From Phycicoccus flavus (GTDB lineage Bacteria; Actinomycetota; Actinomycetes; Actinomycetales; Dermatophilaceae): a stretch of 54,861 nucleotides of DNA. Numbering within the stretch: position 1 is the stretch's first letter; each line of letters begins with the position of its first letter. The position numbers were made by a program, and so were the translations under genes. The notes under the pieces were generated by a model, which was not told where the DNA came from, searched no databases, and was given only the letters and a program-made list of their open reading frames with translations. The DNA is taken from the NCBI RefSeq assembly GCF_004025965.2, contig NZ_SAYU02000024.1:1-54861 (forward strand). The letters run 5' to 3'. Shown here one piece after another: positions 7,536 through 48,415 of this stretch.

Positions 7536-8947
<1,412 letters not shown>

Positions 8948-9068: not shown

Positions 9069-9087
9069 CGTCTCAGGCACTGAGACG
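9069..9087. promoter_or_regulatory. Palindromic operator candidate between leuC and iclR
   Basis: CGTCTCAG-gca-CTGAGACG is a perfect 8-bp inverted repeat with a 3-bp spacer, in the divergent gap 14 bp before the regulator's ATG. IclR regulators LtbR (Corynebacterium) and NdgR (Streptomyces) control leuCD from this position. Binding here is inferred, not known. Confidence 0.65.
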
Positions 9088-9100
9088 TCAATATCAAGTC

Positions 9101-9844
9101 ATGGACAACACGAGTGGGGTCGGGGTGCTCGACAAGGCGGCGGTCGTGCTCTCCGCCCTCGAAGCGGGGCCCTCGACCCTGGCCCAGCTCGTCACCGCGA
9201 CCGGCCTGGCGCGCCCGACGGCGCACCGTCTGGCGGTCGCCCTCGAGCACCACCGGCTCGTGACCCGCGACCTCCAGGGTCGCTTCGTGCTCGGCCCGAG
9301 GCTGGCCGAGCTCGCGGCCGCCGCCGGCGAGGACCGGCTGCTCGCCGCGGCCGGACCCGTGCTTGGCGCCCTGCGCGACCACACGAACGAGTCCGCGCAG
9401 CTGTTCCGCCGTCAGGGTGAGTACCGGGTGTGCGTCTCGGCCGCCGAGCGTCCCGTCGGCCTGCGCGACTCCATCCCCATCGGGGCGACGCTGTCGATGC
9501 GCGCCGGCTCGGCGGCCCAGGTCCTCCTCGCCTGGGAGGAGCCGGACCGCCTGCACCGCGGCCTGCAGGGCGCGGCCTTCTCCGCCACCTCGCTCTCCGG
9601 CGTCCGCCGTCGCGGCTGGGCCCAGAGCGTCGGCGAGCGCGAGCCAGGCGTCGCGTCCGTCTCGGCCCCGGTCCGCTCTCCCAGCGGCCGGATCATCGCC
9701 GCCGTCTCCATCTCCGGGCCCATCGAGCGGCTCTCCCGCCAGCCCGGCCGGCTGCACGCCGCCACCGTCATGGCGGGGGCGAACAAGCTCACCGAGGTGC
9801 TCGCGCGGCACGCCGCCCAGCAGGACGTCCAGAACCACGGCTGA
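9101..9844 (+). CDS. IclR-family regulator of leuCD (LtbR/NdgR-type)
   Basis: 247 residues. The N-terminal winged helix-turn-helix is seen as [15 protein letters not shown], then [20 protein letters not shown] and [10 protein letters not shown]. The C-terminal effector domain includes [40 protein letters not shown] and [24 protein letters not shown]. Its divergent position beside leuCD matches LtbR and NdgR, which repress or modulate leucine and other amino acid genes. An 8-bp inverted repeat lies just before the ATG, suggesting control of both leuCD and itself. The effector is not deducible. Confidence 0.9.
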
Positions 9845-23416: not shown

Positions 23417-25009
23417 TCAGCGGGGCGGGACCCCGGCACGGACGAGGCCGTACGTCACCGACTCCACGAGCGCGTCCCAGCTGGCCTCGAGGATGTTCGC
23501 CGCGACGCCGATCGTCGTCCACGACGTCGTGCCGTCGGAGGTCTCGATGAGCACCCGGGTCACGGCGTCGGTGCCGTGCGCGGCGTCGAGGATGCGCACC
23601 CGGTAGTCGATGAGCTCCAGGTGGCGGATCTCCGGGTACGCGCTGGACAGGGCCGCGCGCAGGGCGTGGTCGAGGGCGTTGACCGGGCCGTTGCCCTCGC
23701 CGGTCTCGACGTGCCGCTCCCCCGCCGCCCGGACCTTGACCGTCGCCTCGGACAGCGCGTCGGCGTCGCCGCGGGCGTCGGTGATGACCCGCCAGGACTC
23801 GACGGAGAAGAAGTCCGGAAGCCCGCCCTGGACCTCGCGGCGCAGCAGCAGCTCGAAGCTCGCGTCGGCGGCGTCGAAGGTGTACCCGCGCAGCTCCTTC
23901 TGCTTGACGGTGGCGAGCACCCGGCGCAGGGTCGCGGCGTCGGTCTCGTCCGCGGCGTCGAGGTCGAAGCCCAGCTCGCGCGACTTCAGCTCGATGGAGG
24001 CCCGGCCGGCCATGTCCGACACGAGCATCCGCATGTCGTTGCCGACGTGCTTGGGGTCCAGGTGCTGGTAGAGGTCGGGGTCGACCTTGATGGCGCTGGC
24101 GTGCAGCCCGGCCTTGTGCGCGAAAGCGCTGGAGCCGACGTAGGGCTGGCGCGAGTACGCCGGCACGTTCGTGACCTCGGCGATGGCGTGGGCGATGCGG
24201 GTCGCGTCCTGCAGGCGGTGGGGCTCGATGAGCGCACGGCCGGCCTTGAGCTGGAGGTTGGCGACGACCGTGAGGAGGTCGGCGTTGCCGGTCCGCTCGC
24301 CGTAGCCGTTGACGGTGCCCTGCACGTGCGTGGCCCCGGCGTCGACCGCCGCCATCGAGTTCGCGACCGCGCAGCCGGTGTCGTTGTGGCAGTGGATGCC
24401 GACCCGCGCCCCGGTCGTGCGCACGACGTCGTCGACGACCTCGGCCACCTGGTTCGGCAGGAGCCCGCCGTTGGTGTCGCACAGGGCGACGACCTCGGCG
24501 CCGGACTCGACGGCGGCGCGCACGGCCTCCAGGGCGTAGTCGCGGTCGAGCCGGTAGCCGTCGAAGAAGTGCTCGGCGTCGAGGAACACCCGGCGGCCCT
24601 CGCCGCGCAGGAGGGCGACGGTGTCGCGGATCATCGCGAGGTTCTCGGCCAGGGTCGTGCGCAGCGCCCGCTCGACGTGCCCGGTGTGCGACTTCGCGAC
24701 GAGGGTGACGACCGACGCCTGGCTGTCCAGCAGCGCGCGCACGAGCGGGTCGTCGCCGGCCCTGACCCCGGCCCGCCGGGTCGCCCCGAAGGCGGTGAGG
24801 GTCGCGGTGCGCAGCCGCAGGTCACGGGCGGCCCGGGCGAAGAACTCGGTGTCCTTGGGGTTGGCGCCGGGCCACCCGCCCTCGATGTACCCGACGCCGA
24901 GGTCGTCGAGGTGGGAGGCGATGGCCATCTTGTCGGCCACGGAGAGGTTGAGACCCTCCTGCTGGGCCCCGTCGCGCAGCGTCGTGTCGTACACGTGCAG
25001 GTCGGTCAT
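23417..25009 (-). CDS. cimA: Citramalate synthase
   Basis: Condenses pyruvate with acetyl-CoA to citramalate, giving 2-oxobutyrate (isoleucine precursor) without threonine. 530 residues: HMGL-like TIM barrel with YDTTLRDGAQQEGLNLSVADK, IEGGWPGANPKD, CDTNGGLLPNQV, HCHNDTGCAVANS and the GTVNGYGERTGNADL block, then a C-terminal LeuA-type allosteric dimer domain, usually the isoleucine sensor. It belongs to the long CimA group rather than LeuA. I chose ATG 25009 because AGGTGA lies six bases upstream; GTG 25015 has no room for one. An attenuator with its own leader peptide precedes it. Confidence 0.93.
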   Translation of the reverse strand: MTDLHVYDTTLRDGAQQEGLNLSVADKMAIASHLDDLGVGYIEGGWPGANPKDTEFFARAARDLRLRTATLTAFGATRRAGVRAGDDPLVRALLDSQASVVTLVAKSHTGHVERALRTTLAENLAMIRDTVALLRGEGRRVFLDAEHFFDGYRLDRDYALEAVRAAVESGAEVVALCDTNGGLLPNQVAEVVDDVVRTTGARVGIHCHNDTGCAVANSMAAVDAGATHVQGTVNGYGERTGNADLLTVVANLQLKAGRALIEPHRLQDATRIAHAIAEVTNVPAYSRQPYVGSSAFAHKAGLHASAIKVDPDLYQHLDPKHVGNDMRMLVSDMAGRASIELKSRELGFDLDAADETDAATLRRVLATVKQKELRGYTFDAADASFELLLRREVQGGLPDFFSVESWRVITDARGDADALSEATVKVRAAGERHVETGEGNGPVNALDHALRAALSSAYPEIRHLELIDYRVRILDAAHGTDAVTRVLIETSDGTTSWTTIGVAANILEASWDALVESVTYGLVRAGVPPR

Positions 25010-25198
25010 CGTCACTCACCTGGTCGGGCCGGGCGTCAGCCGGCGTCCGGGCCCCGGCCCGGTGCGGGCCGGGGCGTCGACGCGTGGCGTGGTCGTGTCC
25101 AGTATCGGTGTCGCGCTGCCCGGGCCGCCCACGTGGTGGGCGGGCGACCCGCTCTCGCCGGTGCGGGCCGCTCCGATGGGTGGGACGCCCCGTCCAGC

Positions 25199-25225
25199 AA
25201 AAAGACCCCCCGGGTGCGGGAGGTC
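25199..25225 (-). terminator. cimA attenuator terminator
   Basis: On the minus strand GACCTCCC...GGGGGGTC forms an 8-bp stem (one G:U) followed directly by TTTTT, 190 nt before cimA. A second hairpin (arms 25227-25236 and 25242-25251, 10 bp, perfect) precedes it. The octamer AGACCTCC occurs both in that hairpin's loop side and in the terminator's left arm, so the two can compete for the same partner. Confidence 0.8.
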
Positions 25226-25250
25226 TGCGCGACGAGGAGGTCTCGTCGCG

Positions 25251-25295
25251 CTAGCCGATAATGACCGCGGCGGTGGCCGCGTCACGGAACGTCAC
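25251..25295 (-). CDS. cimA leader peptide (Val-Ile-Ile control codons)
   Basis: 14-codon ORF read MTFRDAATAAVIIG and TAG, from GTG 25295. It holds GTC-ATT-ATC directly before the last Gly and the stop; ATT is a rare codon here. The stop codon's last base begins the first hairpin, which lies just ahead of the terminator, the standard layout for ribosome-mediated attenuation. When charged Ile/Val-tRNA is scarce, a stalled ribosome would change the folding and let transcription reach cimA. CACAGT (25302-25307) ends 6 nt before the GTG, so the leader mRNA is probably leaderless. Confidence 0.72.
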   Translation of the reverse strand: MTFRDAATAAVIIG

Positions 25296-25339
25296 GGGAG
25301 CACTGTGACACACGGGACGGGCCCGCGCCGAGCCTCCGT

Positions 25340-25350
25340 CCACATCGTGG
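25340..25350. promoter_or_regulatory. CCACATCGTGG box upstream of the cimA leader promoter
   Basis: 11-bp near-palindrome starting 33 bp from the -10 (CACAGT), centred near -50 from the inferred start of transcription. The same box, on either strand, occurs before serA and before the leader at 37978. No -35 hexamer is visible, which fits activation. The regulator is unknown. The rest of 25016-25369 holds only the leader and attenuator. Confidence 0.6.
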
Positions 25351-25369
25351 CCACCGGTGACGAGGGGCC

Positions 25370-31965: not shown

Positions 31966-33351
31966 TCACATCCTCTCGAAGCCGCGGACCCGCTCCCAGT
32001 CCGTGACGGCGGCGTTGAACGCGGTGATCTCGACGTCGGCGGCGTTCACGTAGTGGTCGACGACCTCGTCCCCGAAGGCCGCGCGGGCGACGGCGCTGCC
32101 GACGAGCAGCTCGCGGGCCTCGGCCAGGGTCGCCGGCACGTGCTCGTAGTCGCCCTCGTAGGCGTTGCCCTCGCAGATGGGCGGCAGCTCGAGGCCCTCC
32201 CGGATGCCGTGCAGGCCGCCGGCGAGCATCGCGGCCACGGCGAGGTAGGGGTTGACGTCGCCGCCGGGGACCCGGTTCTCGACCCGCAGCCCCTTTCCGT
32301 GCCCGACGACCCGCAGCGCGCAGGTCCGGTTGTCGGTGCCCCAGGCGACGGCCGTCGGCGCGAACGAGCCGGCGGCGAAGCGCTTGTAGGAGTTGATGTT
32401 CGGCGCGTAGAAGCACGTGAGCTCGCGCATCGTCGCCAGCAGGCCGGCGAGGAAGTGGTCGAAGAGCGGCGAGCGGCCGTGGTCCTGCGCGTCGTCGGCG
32501 AAGACGACCTCGCCGTCGGTGCCGCGCAGCGAGAGGTGGATGTGGCACGAGTTGCCCTCGCGCTCGTCGAACTTCGCCATGAAGGTGAGGCTCTGCCCGT
32601 GCCGGGCGGCGATCTCCTTGGCGCCGGTCTTGTAGACGACGTGGTTGTCGCAGGTGCGCAGCACCTCGTCGAAGAGGAACCCGATCTCGTGCTGGCCGAG
32701 GTTGCACTCGCCCTTGGCGGACTCCACGACCATCCCGGCCCGGTACATCTCGTTGCGGATCTCGCGCAGCACCGGCTCGACCTTGCTGCCGCCGAGGATG
32801 GAGTAGTCGACGTTGTAGCGGTTGGCGCCGGTGAGGCCGTGGTAGCGGCTGTCCCAGGCCTGCTCGTAGGACTCCTCGAAGAGGATGAACTCCAGCTCGG
32901 TGCCGGCGTGCGCGCCCCAGCCCTGCTCGGCGGCGGCGTCGACCTGGGTCTTGAGGATGCTGCGCGGCGACTGCACGACCTCACCGCTGCCGTCGAGCCA
33001 GGTGAGGTCGCACTGGATCGTCACCGTGCTCGGGTGGCCGGGCGTGCGGCGCAGGGTCTCGGGGTCCATCGCGAAGAACATGTCGCCGTAGCCGCGCTCC
33101 CACGAGGAGATGGCGTAGCCGCCGACGGTGTTCATGTCGACGTCGACGGCGAGCAGGTAGTTGCAGCCCTCGGTGCCGTCCTCGAGGACGTGGTCGAGGA
33201 AGTAGGCGCCGTGCAGCCGCTTGCCCTGCAGCCGGCCCTGCATGTCGGTGAAGGCGACGACGACGGTGTCGACGGTGCCGTCGGCGATGTCGGCGCGCAG
33301 CTGCTCGACGGTGAGGCGCGGCGGGCCTCCGGGGTGGACGGCAGGGGGCAT
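31966..33351 (-). CDS. Glutamine-synthetase-like gamma-glutamylamine synthetase (GlnA3/GlnA4/PuuA type)
   Basis: 461 residues with the GS fold: VVVAFTDMQGRLQGKRLHG, GTELEFILFEESY (metal ligands), GQHEIGF, KFDEREGNSCHIHLSL, and NRVPGGDVNPYLAVAAMLAGGLHG. The tyrosine-adenylylation loop of true GS (NLYDLPPEE) is replaced by LELPPICEGNAYEGDYEHVP, typical of GlnA3/PuuA relatives that ligate glutamate to polyamines or ethanolamine. It is second in an operon whose later genes would oxidise and hydrolyse the product. The exact amine cannot be chosen by eye. Confidence 0.85.
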   Translation of the reverse strand: MPPAVHPGGPPRLTVEQLRADIADGTVDTVVVAFTDMQGRLQGKRLHGAYFLDHVLEDGTEGCNYLLAVDVDMNTVGGYAISSWERGYGDMFFAMDPETLRRTPGHPSTVTIQCDLTWLDGSGEVVQSPRSILKTQVDAAAEQGWGAHAGTELEFILFEESYEQAWDSRYHGLTGANRYNVDYSILGGSKVEPVLREIRNEMYRAGMVVESAKGECNLGQHEIGFLFDEVLRTCDNHVVYKTGAKEIAARHGQSLTFMAKFDEREGNSCHIHLSLRGTDGEVVFADDAQDHGRSPLFDHFLAGLLATMRELTCFYAPNINSYKRFAAGSFAPTAVAWGTDNRTCALRVVGHGKGLRVENRVPGGDVNPYLAVAAMLAGGLHGIREGLELPPICEGNAYEGDYEHVPATLAEARELLVGSAVARAAFGDEVVDHYVNAADVEITAFNAAVTDWERVRGFERM

Positions 33352-36603: not shown

Positions 36604-37677
36604 TCAGAGCCGGGCGGCGATGGCGTCGCCGACGGCGCTCGTCGAGCGCGGGGTGGTGCCCCGCTCGGCGAGGTCGGCGGCCACCGCCCGCTCTACTCGC
36701 CCGGCGGCGTCGGGCAGCCCGACGTGCGCGAGGAGCATCGCCACCGAGAGCACGGTGGCGGTGGGGTCGGCGGCCCCCTGCCCGGCGATGTCCGGCGCGG
36801 AGCCGTGGACCGGCTCGAACATGCTCGGGAAGCGGCCCTCGGGGTTGATGTTGCCGCTGGCCGCGAGCCCGATGCCGCCCGCGATGGCGGCGGCGATGTC
36901 GGTGATGATGTCACCGAAGAGGTTGTCGGTGACGACGACGTCGAAGCGGCCGGGGTCGGTGGCGAGGAAGATCGTCGCGGCGTCGACGTGCTGGTAGGCC
37001 GTGGTGACCTCGGGGAACTCGGCGCCGACCTCCTCGACGGTGCGCCGCCAGAGGTGCCCGGCGTGGGTGAGCACGTTGTGCTTGTGGACGAGGGTCAGGT
37101 GCCGGCGCGGGCGCGCCTGGGCGCGGGCGAACGCGTCGCGGACGACGCGCTCGACGCCGAAGCGGGTGTTCACGCTGACCTCGGTGGCGATCTCGGCGGG
37201 GGTGCCGGTGCGCAGCGACCCGCCGTTGCCGACGTACGGACCCTCGGTGCCCTCGCGGACGACGACGAAGTCGATGCCGTCCGGGGCGACCCGCTCGACG
37301 GCGAGCGGCGACTCCACGCCCGGGTAGAGCTTGGCCGGGCGGAGGTTGACGTAGTGCTCGAGGGCGAAGCGCAGCGGCAGCAGCACGCCCCGCTCGAGCA
37401 CACCGCTCGGGACGCCGGGGTCCCCGATGGCGCCGAGGAGGATGGCGTCGTGCTCGCGGACCTCGGCGAGGACCGAGTCGGGCAGGGTCTCCCCCGTCGC
37501 GTGCCAGCGGCGGGCGCCGAGGTCGTACTCGGTGGTCGTGACCTTCGGCCCGTCGGTGCCGACCGCGGCCTCGAGGACCTTGAGACCCTCGGCGACGACC
37601 TCGGGCCCGATGCCGTCGCCGGCGATGACGGCGAGGTCGAGGGCGGTCGGGGCCGTCGGGGACGGGGCGTCGCTCAT
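36604..37677 (-). CDS. leuB: 3-isopropylmalate dehydrogenase
   Basis: Oxidises and decarboxylates 3-isopropylmalate in leucine synthesis. 357 residues: [96 protein letters not shown], and [26 protein letters not shown] box (37685-37690) ends 7 nt before the ATG, so leuB probably has its own leaderless promoter downstream of a hairpin terminator. Confidence 0.97.
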
Positions 37678-37710
37678 GGTGCTCAGCGTAGGAGCCGAGT
37701 CCGGGATGCG

Positions 37711-37749
37711 GACGGCCGTCCCAGCCGCTGAGCGGGCGGGACGGCCGTC
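37711..37749 (-). terminator. Hairpin between the 31-aa ORF and leuB
   Basis: Perfect 12-bp stem (GACGGCCGTCCC and complement) with a 15-nt loop, just after the small ORF's stop. It would separate that ORF's transcript from leuB. Confidence 0.7.
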
Positions 37750-37761
37750 GGCACGTCCGGC

Positions 37762-37857
37762 TCAGTCCTCGCTGTGGCCCTGGTCGCGCAGGTCCATCGA
37801 CTCCTGCAGGGCCTGGCGGGCCATGGCCGCCTCGTCGTAGGTGGGCTCGGTGTTCAT
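37762..37857 (-). CDS. Candidate 31-residue acidic protein
   Basis: Reads MNTEPTYDEAAMARQAL then ESMDLRDQGHSED; predicted to be one charged amphipathic helix. No clear ribosome site (GAGACGAGA is weak). It is 120 nt downstream of a branched-chain leader peptide, in its transcript, and ends at a strong hairpin. I recognise no family. It may be the regulated product, a second leader, or a chance ORF. Confidence 0.45.
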   Translation of the reverse strand: MNTEPTYDEAAMARQALQESMDLRDQGHSED

Positions 37858-37977: not shown

Positions 37978-38028
37978 CTACCGGGCCTCGCCGCGGCCGG
38001 GAATGAGGAGTACCACGAGCCGCGTCAT
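37978..38028 (-). CDS. Branched-chain leader peptide MTRLVVLLIPGRGEAR
   Basis: 16 codons from ATG 38028 to TAG. It has six consecutive Leu/Val/Leu/Ile codons (CTC GTG GTA CTC CTC ATT), including the rare GTA and ATT. A -10 TACCGT (38036-38041) ends 7 nt before the ATG, so translation is probably leaderless. Its tail (37986-37996) pairs perfectly over 11 bp with 37960-37970, and that arm overlaps a competing CGCGG-agacc-CCGCG hairpin. The layout is that of an attenuator; the regulated gene is uncertain (31-aa ORF or leuB). Confidence 0.6.
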   Translation of the reverse strand: MTRLVVLLIPGRGEAR

Positions 38029-38072
38029 GGCTTCGACGGTAGATGGACGTCCTCGTACCGAGCACCCGGTTT

Positions 38073-38083
38073 CCACGATGTGG
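38073..38083. promoter_or_regulatory. CCACGATGTGG box upstream of the third leader
   Basis: Sits 32 bp from the -10 at 38036, centred near -50. It lies inside a wider palindrome, CCGGT-tt-CCACGATGTGG-ACCGG, so it may be the strongest copy. Shared with cimA and serA. Confidence 0.6.
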
Positions 38084-38093
38084 ACCGGCGAGG

Positions 38094-38280: not shown

Positions 38281-39867
38281 TCAGCCCAGGTCGACCGTCC
38301 TGACCGTGTCGGCGCCGATCTCGCGGCCGATGGCGGTGACGACGTCGTCCGGGATGGCGCTGTCGAGGGTGAGGGCGACGATCGCCGTGCCGTTCTCGTC
38401 GTGCGGCGAGACCTGCATCGCGGCGATGTTGACGTCGGCGTCGCCGAGGAGGCGGCCGATGGTGCCGATGACGCCGGGGCGGTCGGTGTAGGAGAAGAAG
38501 GCCATGTGCCGGCTCAGCGGCACCTCGAGGTCGTAGCCGTTGACGCCGATGACCTTCTGGACCATCTTCGGCCCGGTGAGCGTGCCGGCCACGGACAGGA
38601 CCGTCCCGTCACCGAGGGTGCCGCGCAGCGTCGTGACGTTGCGGTAGGCCTCGCTGTGCGGGTCGGTGACGAGCCGCGACTCGATGCCGCGCTCCTTGGC
38701 CAGGAGCGGGGCGTTGACGTAGGTGACCGAGTCCTCGGTGAGGTCGGTGAAGATGCCCTTGAGGGCCGACAGCTCCCAGATGGAGACGTCGTGCGCGGTG
38801 ATCTCGCCGCGGACCTCGACGTCGAGCTGGACCGGCACCGTCCCGGCGAGCGCGGTGAAGACCCGGCCGAGCTTCTCGACGAGGTCGATGCCCGGACGGA
38901 CGTCCTCGTCGACGGCGCCGCCGGAGACGTTGACCGCGTCGGGCACGAGGTCCCCGCCGAGCGCGAGCCGCACCGAGCGGGCGACGGCGACGCCGGCCTT
39001 CTCCTGCGCCTCGTCGGTGGACGCGCCGAGGTGCGGGGTGACGACGACGGACTCGAACGCGAACAGCGGGCTGTCGGTGCACGGCTCGCTGGCGTAGACG
39101 TCGAGCCCGGCGCCGGCGACGCGGCCGTCGGCGATGGCCTCGGCGAGCGCGTCCTCGTCGAGCACGCCGCCGCGGGCGGCGTTGACGATCCGCACGGTCG
39201 GCTTGACCTTGGCCAGCGCCTCCTTGCCGATGAGCCCGAGGGTCTCGGAGGTCTTCGGCAGGTGGATGGTGATGAAGTCGGACTCGGCGAGGAGCTCGTC
39301 GAGGGTGACGAGCCGCGCCCCGAGCTGGCCGGCGCGCTGCACCGAGACGTAGGGGTCGTAGGCGAGGATCTCGACGCCGAAGCCCTTGAGGCGCTCGGCG
39401 ACGAGCTGGCCGATGCGGCCGAAGCCGACGATGCCGACCTTCTTCTCGAGCAGCTCGACGCCCCCGTACTTGCTGCGCTTCCAGGCCCCGCCCTTGAGGG
39501 CCTCGTTGGCCGGGGCGATGTTGCGGGCGCAGGCGAGGAGCAGGCCGATGGCGAGCTCGGCGGCGGAGGTGATGTTGGACGTGGGCGCGTTGACGACCAT
39601 GACGCCGGCCTTGGTGGCGGCGTCGATGTCGACGTTGTCGAGCCCGACGCCGGCGCGGGCGACGACCTTGAGCTCCCGGGCGGCGGCGAGGGCCTCGGCG
39701 TCGACCTTCGTCGCGGAGCGCACGAGGATCGCGTCGACGTCCGCGATCGCGGACAGCAGCTGGTCGCGGTCGGACCCGTCGGTGTGGCGGACCTCGAAGT
39801 CGGGTCCGAGGGCGTCGATGGTCGCTGGGGACAGCTCCTCGGCGATGAGCACGACGGGCTTGGTCAC
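38281..39867 (-). CDS. serA: D-3-phosphoglycerate dehydrogenase (with ACT domain)
   Basis: First step of serine synthesis. 528 residues, the long actinobacterial form with an intervening allosteric domain. Landmarks: VLIAEELSPATIDALGP, VVARAGVGLDNVDIDAAT, VGIVGFGRIGQLVAERLKGFG (NAD loop), RIVNAARGGVLDEDALAEAI, VVVTPHLGASTDEAQEKAGV and a C-terminal ACT domain with HMAFFSYTDRPGVIGTIG, the serine sensor. GTG 39867 follows GGAAGG at a long spacing. The upstream box at 39987 is shared with two BCAA leaders. Confidence 0.97.
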   Translation of the reverse strand: MTKPVVLIAEELSPATIDALGPDFEVRHTDGSDRDQLLSAIADVDAILVRSATKVDAEALAAARELKVVARAGVGLDNVDIDAATKAGVMVVNAPTSNITSAAELAIGLLLACARNIAPANEALKGGAWKRSKYGGVELLEKKVGIVGFGRIGQLVAERLKGFGVEILAYDPYVSVQRAGQLGARLVTLDELLAESDFITIHLPKTSETLGLIGKEALAKVKPTVRIVNAARGGVLDEDALAEAIADGRVAGAGLDVYASEPCTDSPLFAFESVVVTPHLGASTDEAQEKAGVAVARSVRLALGGDLVPDAVNVSGGAVDEDVRPGIDLVEKLGRVFTALAGTVPVQLDVEVRGEITAHDVSIWELSALKGIFTDLTEDSVTYVNAPLLAKERGIESRLVTDPHSEAYRNVTTLRGTLGDGTVLSVAGTLTGPKMVQKVIGVNGYDLEVPLSRHMAFFSYTDRPGVIGTIGRLLGDADVNIAAMQVSPHDENGTAIVALTLDSAIPDDVVTAIGREIGADTVRTVDLG

Positions 39868-39951: not shown

Positions 39952-39997
39952 ATCGTAGGGTCTGGCCCGCGGGGGCCCGGTCCGGCCCACGATGTGG
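39952..39997 (-). promoter_or_regulatory. serA promoter with CCACGATGTGG box
   Basis: The -10 TACGAT lies at 39952-39957 on the minus strand. The box is at 39987-39997, 30 bp upstream, centred near -47. No -35 is visible. The spacing matches the cimA and third-leader promoters within 3 bp, pointing to one activator. Confidence 0.6.
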
Positions 39998-40018
39998 TAA
40001 CCGGCCCTCAGAGGACGC

Positions 40019-42222: not shown

Positions 42223-44121
42223 TCAGGCCCCTTCGGAGTCGTCGTAGCCGTCGTCGGTGTCCACCGGCGGCTGCTCGACCGCCTCGGACTCCTCGCGGTC
42301 CCACTGCGGCGCGGTGTCGCGCGCCACCTGGATGAGGTCGTTGCTCACGCCGGCGGGCACCATCGGCCACACCATCGCGTCGCGGTGGACGACGAAGTCG
42401 ACGACGACCGGTCGGTCGGTGACGGCCATCGCCTGACGGATCGTGTCGTCGACGTCCTCGGGCCGCTCGCAGCGCAGGCCGACGCAGCCGTAGGCGTCGG
42501 CGAGCTTGACGAAGTCGGGCACCCGCGAGCCGACCGAGGTGTGCAGGTCGGTGTTGGAGTACCGCTCGTTGTAGAAGAGGGTCTGCCACTGGCGGACCAT
42601 CCCGAGGGAGGAGTTGTTGATGATCGCGACCTTGATCGGGATGTTGTTGATGACGCAGGTCGCGAGCTCCTGGTTGGTCATCTGGAAGCAGCCGTCGCCG
42701 TCGATGGCCCACACCGTGCGCTCGGGCTCGCCGACCTGGGCGCCCATCGCCGCGGGCACCGAGTACCCCATGGTCCCGAGGCCGCCGGAGTTGAGCCAGG
42801 AGTTCGGCCGCTCGTAGGAGACGAACTGGGCCGCCCACATCTGGTGCTGGCCGACGCCCGCGCAGTACACGGCGTCGGGGCCGGCGATGGCGCCGAGCCG
42901 CTCGATGACCAGCTGCGGCGAGAGCGTGCCGTCGTCCGGCGCGGTGTACCCGACGGGGAAGGTCTCCTTCCAGCCGGCGACCCGCTCGCGCCACTCGGTG
43001 TAGTCACCGCCCTGGCCGGCCTCGAGGTCGGCGTCGACCGCGTCGAGCAGGTCGGTGAGCACGGCCTTGCAGTCGCCGACGATCGGGACGTCGGCGCGGC
43101 GGTTCTTGCTGATCTCGGCGGGGTCGATGTCGGCGTGGACGACGCGGGCCTCGGGCGCGAAGGTCGACAACTGGCCGGTCACGCGGTCGTCGAAGCGGGC
43201 GCCGAGGGCGACGATGAGGTCGGCCTTCTGGAGGCCGGTGACCGCGGCGACCGAGCCGTGCATCCCCGGCATGCCGAGGTGCAGGGGGTGGCTGTCCGGC
43301 AGGGCGCCGCGGGCCATGAGGGTCGTGACGACGGGGATGTGGGTGAGGTCGACGAACCGGCGCAGCTCCTCGGCGGCCCGGGCGCGGATGACCCCGCCGC
43401 CGACGTAGAGCACCGGGCGCTCGGCGGCGGCGATGAGCCGGGCGGCCTCGCGGATCTGCTTGCCGTGCGGGCGGGTCACCGGGTGGTAGCCGGGCAGCGC
43501 GATCTTCGGCGGCCAGGAGAACGTCGTCCGCGAGGTGAGGACGTCCTTGGGGATGTCGACGAGCACCGGGCCGGGCCGGCCGGTGGCGGCGATGTGGAAG
43601 GCCTCGGCGACGACCCGCGGGATGTCGGCGGCGTCGGTGACGAGGTAGCTGTGCTTGGTGATCGGCATGGTGATGCCGCGGATGTCCGCCTCCTGGAAGG
43701 CGTCCGTGCCGATGGCGGAGGAGACGACCTGGCCGGTGATGGCGACGATCGGGACCGAGTCCATGTAGGCGTCGGCCAGCGGGGTGACGAGGTTCGTCGC
43801 GCCGGGGCCGGAGGTCGCCATGCACACGCCGACCCTGCCGGTGGCGGCGGCGTAGCCCTCGGCGGCGTGGCCGGCGCCCTGCTCGTGCCGGACGAGGATG
43901 TGCCGCACCGAGACCGAGTCCAGCAGCGGGTCGTAGGCCGGGAGGATGGTCCCGCCCGGGATGCCGAAGACGGTGTCGACCTCGAGGGCCTCGAGGGCCA
44001 GGACGAGGCTCTGCGCGCCGGTGACCTCGACCGGCGCCTTGGCTCGGGCCTGCTGGGCCATCTGCGCCGGGCTGGGGGCCGGGTGCAGGCCGGTCGGGGT
44101 CGCCGTCCTGGTCTCGCTCAC
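42223..44121 (-). CDS. ilvB: Acetolactate synthase large subunit
   Basis: ThDP/FAD enzyme for the first common BCAA step. 632 residues. N-terminal Pyr domain with the catalytic Glu in [20 protein letters not shown], mid FAD-binding region, and C-terminal ThDP/Mg motif [19 protein letters not shown]...INN. The GTG start lies at 44121, ~108 nt after an attenuator terminator and a BCAA leader peptide. First gene of ilvBNC. Confidence 0.98.
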
Positions 44122-44300: not shown

Positions 44301-44368
44301 CCGGCGAGACGCCCGGTCCCATCATGCAAGACCCCCCGGGGTGGGCGATCCGGACGGTTCCCGGCCGG

Positions 44369-45940: not shown

Positions 45941-46722
45941 CTCGGCTGCTCCGCGGCGCCGAGCCAGCCGAGGCCGTCGTCGGCGACGAGCTGCCCGGCG
46001 CCGACGAGCTCGAGGAAGCGTTCGTGCAGCGAGCCGCCCGCGGTGAGCGCGGTGACGGTGTCGACGGCGAGCACCCGGCCGCCGGCGACGACGGCCACCC
46101 GGTCGCACAGGCCCTCGACGAGCTCCATGACGTGGCTGGACATGACGACGGTCCCGCCGGTCGCGACGTAGCGGCGCAGGATGGTGCGGATGGCCTGGCC
46201 GGACACGGGGTCGACGGCCTCGAACGGCTCGTCGAGCACGAGCAGGCGGGGGGCGTGGATGAGCGCCGCGGCGAGGCTGATCTTCTTGACCATGCCGGCG
46301 CTGTAGTCGGCGACGACGGTGTTGGCGTCACCGGCCAGGTCCAGGACGGCCAGCAGCTCCTCGGACCGGGCGGCGACGTCCTCCGCCGGCATCCGGCGCA
46401 GGGCGCCGACGTAGCGCAGCAGCTCACGGCCGGACAGCTGCTCGAAGAGGCGCATGCCGTCCGGCGAGACGCCCATGACCGCCTTGGCCGCCGCGGGGTC
46501 GGCCCAGACGTCGATGCCGAGCACCCGCGCCGTGCCCGCCGTGGGCCGCAGCAGACCCGTCGCCATCGAGAGGGTCGTCGTCTTGCCGGCGCCGTTCGGC
46601 CCGACGAGCCCGAAGAGCGAGCCGCGCGGGACCGCCAGCGAGAGCTCGTGGACGACCCGGCGGCCGCGGAACTCCTTGACGAGGCCGGAGAGCTCGATCG
46701 CCGGCGGGGCGCTCTCAGTCAC
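45937..46722 (-). CDS. ABC transporter ATP-binding protein
   Basis: 261 residues. Walker [17 protein letters not shown], the signature helix written [17 protein letters not shown], where SAGM replaces the usual LSGGQ, Walker [14 protein letters not shown] and the switch His in [14 protein letters not shown]. It drives the permease encoded next. GTG 46722 lies inside the ilvD end (8-base overlap), so the pair follows ilvD in the operon. Confidence 0.9.
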
Positions 46723-48415
46723 ACACGGCGCCGGTGCTGGCACTGCGGACGAGCTTGCGGTACTTCGCGAGGACGCCGCGGGTGTACTTCGGCTCCGGGT
46801 GGGTGACGCCCTCCTCGCGGCGGCGCGCGAGCTCCTCGTCGTCGACGAGCAGGTCCAGGGTGCCGCCGGCGACGTCGAGCCGGACCCGGTCGCCGTCGCG
46901 GACGAAGGCGATGGGCCCCTCGTCGACGGCCTCCGGCGCGACGTGCCCGACGCACAGGCCGGTGGTGCCGCCGGAGAAGCGGCCGTCGGTGAGCAGCAGG
47001 ACGTCCTTGCCGAGCCCGGCGCCCTTGATGGCGCCGGTGACCGCGAGCATCTCGCGCATCCCCGGGCCCCCCTTGGGGCCCTCGTAGCGGATGACGACGA
47101 CGTCGCCCGCCTGCAGCGTGCCGTCCTCGACGGCGTCCATGGCCGGGCGCTCGCCGTCGAAGACGCGCGCCGTGCCCTCGAAGACGTCCTCGTCGAAGCC
47201 GGCGGACTTGACGACCGCACCCTCCGGGGCGAGCGAGCCGGTGAGGATGGTGATGCCGCCGGTCCGGTGGATCGGCTCCTGCATGGCCCGCACGACCTTG
47301 CCGTCGACGTCCGGCGGGGCGATGTCGGCGAGGTTCTCGGCCATGGTGCGGCCGGTGACGGTGAGGCAGTCGCCGTGCAGCAGGCCGGCGTCGAGCAGGG
47401 CGCGCATGACGACGGGCACGCCGCCGACGCGGTCGACGTCGGTCATCACGTACTGCCCGAACGGCTTGACGTCGGCCAGGTGCGGCACCTTCGCGCCGAC
47501 CCTGCGGAAGTCCTCGAGGGTGAGGTCGACCTCGGCCTCGTGGGCGATGGCGAGCAGGTGCAGGACGGCGTTCGTCGAGCCGCCGAAGGCCATGACGACG
47601 GCGATGGCGTTCTCGAACGCCTCCTTGGTCATGATGTCCCGGGCGGTGATGCCGCGGCGGAGCAGCTCGACGACGGCCTCGCCGCTGCGCCGCGCGAACC
47701 CGTCGCGACGCCGGTCGGTGGCGGGCGGGGCGGCGGACCCGGGCAGCGACATGCCGATGGCCTCGGCGACCGACGCCATCGTGTTCGCGGTGTACATGCC
47801 GCCGCAGGCGCCCTCGCCGGGGCAGATGGCGCGCTCGATGGCGTCGACGTCCTCGCGCGGGATGAGCCCGCGGGCGCAGGCGCCGATGGCCTCGAAGGCG
47901 TCGATGATCGTCACCTGCTTCTCGGTGCCGTCCGAGAGCTTGGCGATGCCCGGCAGGATCGAGCCGGCGTAGAGGAAGACCGACGACAGGTCGAGGCGGG
48001 CGGCGGCCATGAGCATGCCCGGCAGGGACTTGTCGCAGCCGGCGAGCAGGACCGAGCCGTCGAGCCGCTCGGCGTTCATCACGGTCTCGACGGAGTCGGC
48101 GATGACCTCGCGGCTGACGAGCGAGAAGTGCATCCCGTCGTGGCCCATCGAGATGCCGTCGGAGACCGAGATGGTCCCGAACTCCAGCGGGTAGCCGCCG
48201 CCGGCGTGCACGCCGTCCTTGACGGCCTGCGCCAGCCGGTCCAGCGACAGGTTGCACGGGGTGATCTCGTTCCACGAGCTCGCGACCCCGACCTGCGGCT
48301 TGGCGAAGTCCTCGTCCCCAAGCCCCACCGCCCGGAGCATGCCGCGGGCGGCGGCCTTCTCGAGACCGTCGGTGACGTCACGGCTGCGGGGCTTGATGTC
48401 GGGGGTCGAGCTCAT
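46715..48415 (-). CDS. ilvD: Dihydroxy-acid dehydratase
   Basis: 566 residues, Fe-S enzyme for the third common BCAA step. Cluster ligands: GCDKSLPG and [16 protein letters not shown], with [14 protein letters not shown] near the N-terminus. Late landmarks are [24 protein letters not shown] 48415 stands 7 nt after TAGGAT (48423-48428), so leaderless. The ABC transporter pair follows with overlap. Confidence 0.98.

Follow-up and report, generated by a model that had tools for sequence, protein, structure and literature searches.

The region analysed (the window) comprises 54,861 nt of contig NZ_SAYU02000024.1 of Phycicoccus flavus, read on the forward strand. It carries leuC, a gene for an IclR-family regulator, cimA, leuB, serA and ilvB; ilvE and ilvC were also found with NCBIfam models. 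Boxes are named for their likeness to the published operator of the regulator NdgR. The features are as follows.

7577-8947: leuC.
9070-9086, plus strand: palindrome GTCTCAGGCACTGAGAC of the TCTCA-N5-TGAGA type between ndgR and leuC, a probable autoregulatory operator.
9101-9844, plus strand: IclR-family regulator gene (PF01614 and PF09339), taken as ndgR/ltbR, divergent from leuC.
23417-25015, minus strand: cimA, citramalate synthase (TIGR00977, 643.7 bits against a cut-off of 450).
25199-25226, minus strand: terminator-like hairpin and T run after the cimA leader.
25251-25295, minus strand: putative leaderless leader peptide VTFRDAATAAVIIG before cimA, conserved in 14 of the 14 loci given.
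25302-25307, minus strand: putative -10 (CACAGT) of the cimA leader promoter.
25338-25352, minus strand: NdgR-type box before the cimA leader (GGCCACGATGTGGAC), with the exact 11-mer.
36604-37677, minus strand: leuB (NF002898, 584 bits against a cut-off of 393).
37699-37713, minus strand: a further NdgR-type box (GTCCGCATCCCGGAC) directly upstream of leuB, found by pattern search; a putative -10 (TACGCT) follows after about 16 nt.
37762-37857, minus strand: small ORF encoding 31 aa (MNTEPTYDEAAMARQALQESMDLRDQGHSED), downstream of the leu leader and upstream of leuB.
37978-38028, minus strand: putative leader peptide MTRLVVLLIPGRGEAR before the small ORF of leuB (the leu leader).
38071-38085, minus strand: NdgR-type box before the leu leader (GTCCACATCGTGGAA), with the exact 11-mer, centred at -50 from the leader start.
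38281-39867, minus strand: serA, phosphoglycerate dehydrogenase (TIGR01327, 587 bits against a cut-off of 454).
39952-39957, minus strand: putative -10 (TACGAT) of serA.
39985-39999, minus strand: NdgR-type box before serA (TACCACATCGTGGGC), with the exact 11-mer; in relatives, this is the distal one of two tandem boxes.
42223-44121: gene of a TPP enzyme (Pfam), taken as ilvB.
44317-44331, minus strand: degenerate box position before the ilvB leader (TCTTGCATGATGGGA), centred at -59 from the leader start; position conserved.

The 11-mer CCACATCGTGG was searched for as an exact word. Three copies were found in the window, at 25340-25350 (minus strand), 38073-38083 (plus strand) and 39987-39997 (plus strand), upstream of the cimA leader, of the leader before leuB and of serA, respectively. 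These are the three intergenic copies named in a sequence-only reading of the same DNA, and there were no others. That reading had placed each copy 30-33 bp before a -10 hexamer. Counted by eye, the distances were 32 nt (cimA leader, CACAGT), 31 nt (leu leader, TACCGT) and 29 nt (serA, TACGAT), close to that range, and no -35-like hexamer was visible at the three promoters, as it had also stated. It had set the copy at 38073 inside a larger palindrome; the outer arms were present, were imperfect (0 and 2 nt from the core) and were absent in the relative L220.

Random 11-mers of the same letters had a mean of 0.03 occurrences in the window, and 12 of 20,000 such words occurred at least three times. 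In the 4.26-Mb genome (153 contigs) the exact word occurred four times, and its reversed control was absent. The probability that at least three of four randomly scattered copies would land in this contig was approximately 8.5e-6. Up to two mismatches gave 49 window matches where 23.6 were expected, and one mismatch gave 88 genome places, compared with 74 for the reversed word; inexact copies are thus mostly background. The start codon of a MarR-family gene (family assigned by eye) is overlapped by the fourth exact copy. This gene was considered as a regulator or target and rejected; the copy is probably due to chance, since, at E <= 1e-20, a single one of 18 other genomes gave a match to the gene (39% identity).

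The bare 11-mer was also rejected as a regulon marker outside the genus. A copy occurred in 57 of 58 genomes, and serA, leuB, cimA, ilvB, ilvC and ilvE were near none of the 30 copies examined from 30 genomes of other genera (the window genus was represented among these loci by none but the window genome's own). The stricter pattern KTYCRCATNNYGGRM gave 3 matches in the window's own genome against 8 for the backward control and therefore reveals no larger regulon. The sequence GTCCGCATTTCGGAC stands just upstream of an ORF resembling, by eye, an AEC-family transporter (L278:1490-2499, G000:C81), a possible further target.

Spacing was compared among orthologous promoters, the genus being defined as genomes G000-G011, grouped with the window. 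At cimA, 14 of the 27 loci found were used (12 of the genus, L154 and L155). The window box is centred at -50 from the leader start, and the best site within 90 nt lay at -49 or -50 in all 14 loci, with scores of 8.1 to 15.6. A mean-offset test gave a conserved extra half-site signal at offset +11 (z 4.0). At the leu leader, the box centre was at -48 to -50 in all nine leaders recognised within the genus, out of 11 leuB loci available (no leuB match in G002). The full set was 13 loci, with 10 leaders recognised and none in L218, L223 or L227; a false leader matched at -45 in L228, from another genus, was not counted. L223 carries GTCCACATTGTGAAA upstream. The mean-offset test for tandem sites gave no peak at the leu leader and an offset of +21 (z 3.2) at Streptomyces leuB.

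Before serA, the box centre was 35 nt upstream of the -10 in 12/12 loci of the genus. A second box, centred 14 nt before the -10 and exactly 21 bp downstream of the distal one, was present in 10 of these 12 and absent from the window and G008; the same 21-bp offset appeared in the mean-offset test (z 3.5). The serA spacing noted earlier therefore belongs to the distal one of two paired boxes. The nearest serA relatives among named genomes were an uncultured Phycicoccus (L061, 89% identity), then Knoellia, Tetrasphaera and others. Among the 15 relatives L061-L075, seven carried a site 14-16 nt upstream of the -10, whereas others had the distal place only; L072 and L073 had no site above 3.4, and L074 had no recognised -10. 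The exact 11-mer was found 35 nt before the -10 in Kineosporia (L075). It was found at up to one mismatch in none of the 24 loci L076-L099 (Streptomyces-type and one Jiangella). Loci L213-L215 were also inspected, outside the spacing counts. Absence of the box from orthologous serA and cimA promoters had been named as an observation that would speak against a shared regulator; the box was kept at both within the genus, and outside it the exact 11-mer was no marker.

A weak related sequence had been noted upstream of ilvB near 44311. The box position TCTTGCATGATGGGA does lie where relatives carry a box; its own score was poor (rank 2682). The ilvB box was centred 23 nt before GTTGAC in 16 of the 25 loci given, 3 of the 25 had no GTTGAC, and the window's own best site was elsewhere. 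The +21 offset came only fourth at ilvB in the mean-offset test (z 1.8, not clear), and the tandem arrangement there rests on pattern counts instead. For leuA, nine of the ten genus loci were used, a second copy in G004 being omitted. Sites were at -48 to -50 or -59 in 9/9, of which four scored 5.8 or less, within background. Before ilvD (46718-48349), a box above background was found in 0 of 11 loci.

The regulator was sought by comparison with published operators. ChIP-seq of S. coelicolor NdgR (SCO5552) gave 19 loci and a 15-bp motif, with leuB and ilvB among the targets, according to the available text of PMC4340878. A symmetrised matrix was built only from its 18 published sites (PMC4340878, available text). 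Among 54,847 window positions, the leu-leader box ranked 1, the cimA box 2, the leuB box 5 and the serA box 16, and none of 200 column-permuted matrices ranked the four as well. Ranks 3 and 4 fell at 32044 and at 43684, the latter inside ilvB and neither before an amino-acid promoter, and the matrix is thus imperfectly specific. A second matrix used palindromes chosen blind in 21 leuB promoters of the Streptomyces lineage; it ranked the same boxes (leu leader, cimA, leuB, serA) at 1, 3, 4 and 48, again with 0/200 permutations as good. When picked by likeness, GTCC-N7-GGAC was present before leuB in 19 of these 21 promoters. Matching by order the two tables given in PMC4340878, the S. coelicolor sites would be GTCCGCCATGCGGAC for leuB and TCCCACCCACTTGAC for ilvB. 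A survey of the IclR family gives the NdgR/LtbR motif as KTYCRSMWYSYGRRM in its available text (PMC8222616); the leu-leader and leuB boxes fit it at 15/15 positions, and the cimA and serA boxes at fewer than all 15.

The IclR gene at 9101-9844 is taken as the ndgR/ltbR ortholog by its position beside leuC; its protein passes no NCBIfam model. An IclR gene adjoined leuC at 30/30 leuC loci as well as in the window. The sequence TCTCA-N5-TGAGA was found in 20 of the 30 leuC upstream regions and a looser form in all 30. In the window this palindrome stands immediately before the ndgR start codon (putative promoter 9070-9100, plus strand), and by eye the message seems leaderless. It is spelled differently from the other boxes, and the best rank of the ChIP matrix in the ndgR-leuC intergenic region was only 925. 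Operators mixing one window-type half with one TGAGA half of the ndgR-leuC type were found in 48 of 64 Streptomyces-lineage ilvB regions; regions read backwards gave 0 and serA regions 0. In 48/48 a box ending in TTGAC lay 21 bp beyond (46 of the form TCCCAC-N4-TTGAC), and 27 of the 48 were identical to the S. coelicolor ChIP sequence. Because one half of each kind is joined in these operators, we favour a single regulator that would read both half-site spellings.

Taken with the matrix ranks and the rigid spacing, these observations make it probable that CCACATCGTGG is the core of a 15-bp operator of NdgR/LtbR, a known actinobacterial regulator of leucine, isoleucine and valine synthesis; it belongs to the IclR family and would be encoded in the same window. 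The sequence-only reading knew of no regulator with such a site, and in this it does not stand. S. coelicolor NdgR resembles the present system in the IclR gene adjoining leuC, the palindromic GTCCAC-type sites and the targeting of leuB and ilvB (PMC4340878, available text). It differs in that the regulon table of that paper lists neither serA nor cimA, names that do not occur in its text either, and in that ilvD is targeted there, with no box at ilvD here (PMC4340878). The degeneracy of the ChIP-derived motif counts against the identity of the operator. So do the differently spelled, poorly scoring palindrome at ndgR-leuC, where an autoregulatory site would be expected, the two off-promoter positions at ranks 3 and 4, the missing box at ilvD, the 24 Streptomyces-type and Jiangella serA loci lacking the 11-mer at up to one mismatch, and the lack of an NCBIfam model passed by the IclR protein. 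Operators of the PcaU/PobR type have an external direct half-site, to which the extra signal 11 bp beyond the cimA box may be compared; as described in the available text of PMC8222616, their regulators are catabolic and their half-sites have other letters. The window protein scored 79.6 bits against that family, far below the cut-off of 284.75.

Two explanations dispense with this operator. Chance repetition of the palindrome might be supported by the abundance of inexact copies and by a fourth exact copy that is probably accidental; one contig carries three of the genome's four copies and relatives keep their position, so that chance is already contradicted by conservation and is extremely improbable. 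It is also improbable, though less so, that another regulator owns the GTCCACAT-type box, that binding by NdgR is confined to the TCTCA palindrome before leuC, and that the likeness to the ChIP sites arose from co-occupied promoters. The different spelling and poor matrix score of the ndgR-leuC palindrome would fit such an arrangement, and the mixed half-site operators at ilvB and the ranks of the window boxes under the ChIP matrix speak against it.

The sign of regulation was considered separately. With the same operator and regulator, NdgR might instead repress, lack of an amino-acid signal giving relief as for LtbR of C. glutamicum. We regard this as rather unlikely. In its favour, the leuB box and the proximal serA boxes cover the -35 region, 14-16 nt upstream of the -10. 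LtbR itself is said, by a title in a reference list, to be an IclR regulator of leucine genes, a likeness to the present regulator. The available text of PMC9138238 describes it as a repressor of the trp operon and of leucine and tryptophan genes, a difference from the activation preferred here, as is its 12-bp motif between the -10 and the ribosome binding site at trpL. Against repression, the distal serA box and the boxes of the cimA and leu leaders are placed farther upstream than the usual -35 region; their distance is fixed, and no -35 can be seen. A further paper is reportedly titled for NdgR as an activator of leucine and methionine synthesis.

NdgR most likely activates the promoters of serA and of the cimA and leu leaders, because these show no -35 and have the site at about -47 to -50. 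An NdgR dimer would occupy each palindrome and, from this position, would help RNA polymerase at the three promoters. A pair of dimers 21 bp (two helical turns) apart would be accommodated at the serA promoters of relatives and at Streptomyces ilvB. For the boxes over the -35 region (leuB and the proximal serA box of relatives), activation and repression would both fit. The analysis shows the sites, their conservation and rigid spacing, their fit to the ChIP-derived sites and the presence of the gene; NdgR binding to the boxes, the sign of regulation and the ligand are inferred. The earlier proposal of a single activator for serine and branched-chain genes is thus supported as to a common regulator, given the same box, rigid spacing and retention in the genus; activation is plausible from position.

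The cimA and leu promoters are followed by leader peptides rich in Ile, Val or Leu codons, which would probably add attenuation. The cimA leader (25199-25295, minus strand) is strongly conserved, of the VTFRDAAT.AIII type, and is followed by the hairpin and terminator; the fold z was -4.3 (25203-25297), against a weaker -2.3 for the leu leader. No Rfam match was obtained in 20000-48000. The leu leader MTRLVVLLIPGRGEAR, with its GC-rich hairpin region, resembles a LEU-type leader, yet it stands before the small ORF of leuB. An actinobacterial ilvB leader and terminator and a LEU element before leuA are described in PMC1262725 (available text). The present leaders are alike in having peptides with branched-chain codons before such genes, and they differ in that cimA and leuB are unmentioned in the main text of that paper. 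The 31-aa ORF had no NCBIfam match. ORFs sharing its LRDQGH-, LREQGH- or LRDQDH-type ending were found in 11 of the 14 loci L216-L229 (one of the 11 also gave an unrelated ORF) and in 8/8 further loci given.

The box is of a known kind; as far as the open-access literature shows, serA and cimA are new likely NdgR targets. Open-access searches gave no paper on NdgR with serA that seemed pertinent from its title and the start of its abstract, and none on NdgR with cimA or on an IclR regulator linked to phosphoglycerate dehydrogenase and leucine biosynthesis in actinobacteria. Control of serA by LtbR was absent from the available text of the C. glutamicum paper (PMC9138238). A fuller proposal is judged about equally likely to be right or wrong: that in Phycicoccus and related genera NdgR took in serA and cimA, that it activates without a -35 (at two promoters leading into leader peptides), acting from set positions that differ by roughly one or two turns of the helix (approximately -28, -49 and -59), and that it reads GTCCAC and TCTCA half-sites that can be mixed.

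An apparently orphan box would thus gain a likely regulator. The branched-chain regulon would also take in the opening step of serine synthesis, as well as the citramalate route to isoleucine. The tandem spacing of 21 bp and the mixed half-sites may offer a testable reason for the degeneracy of the published NdgR motif.
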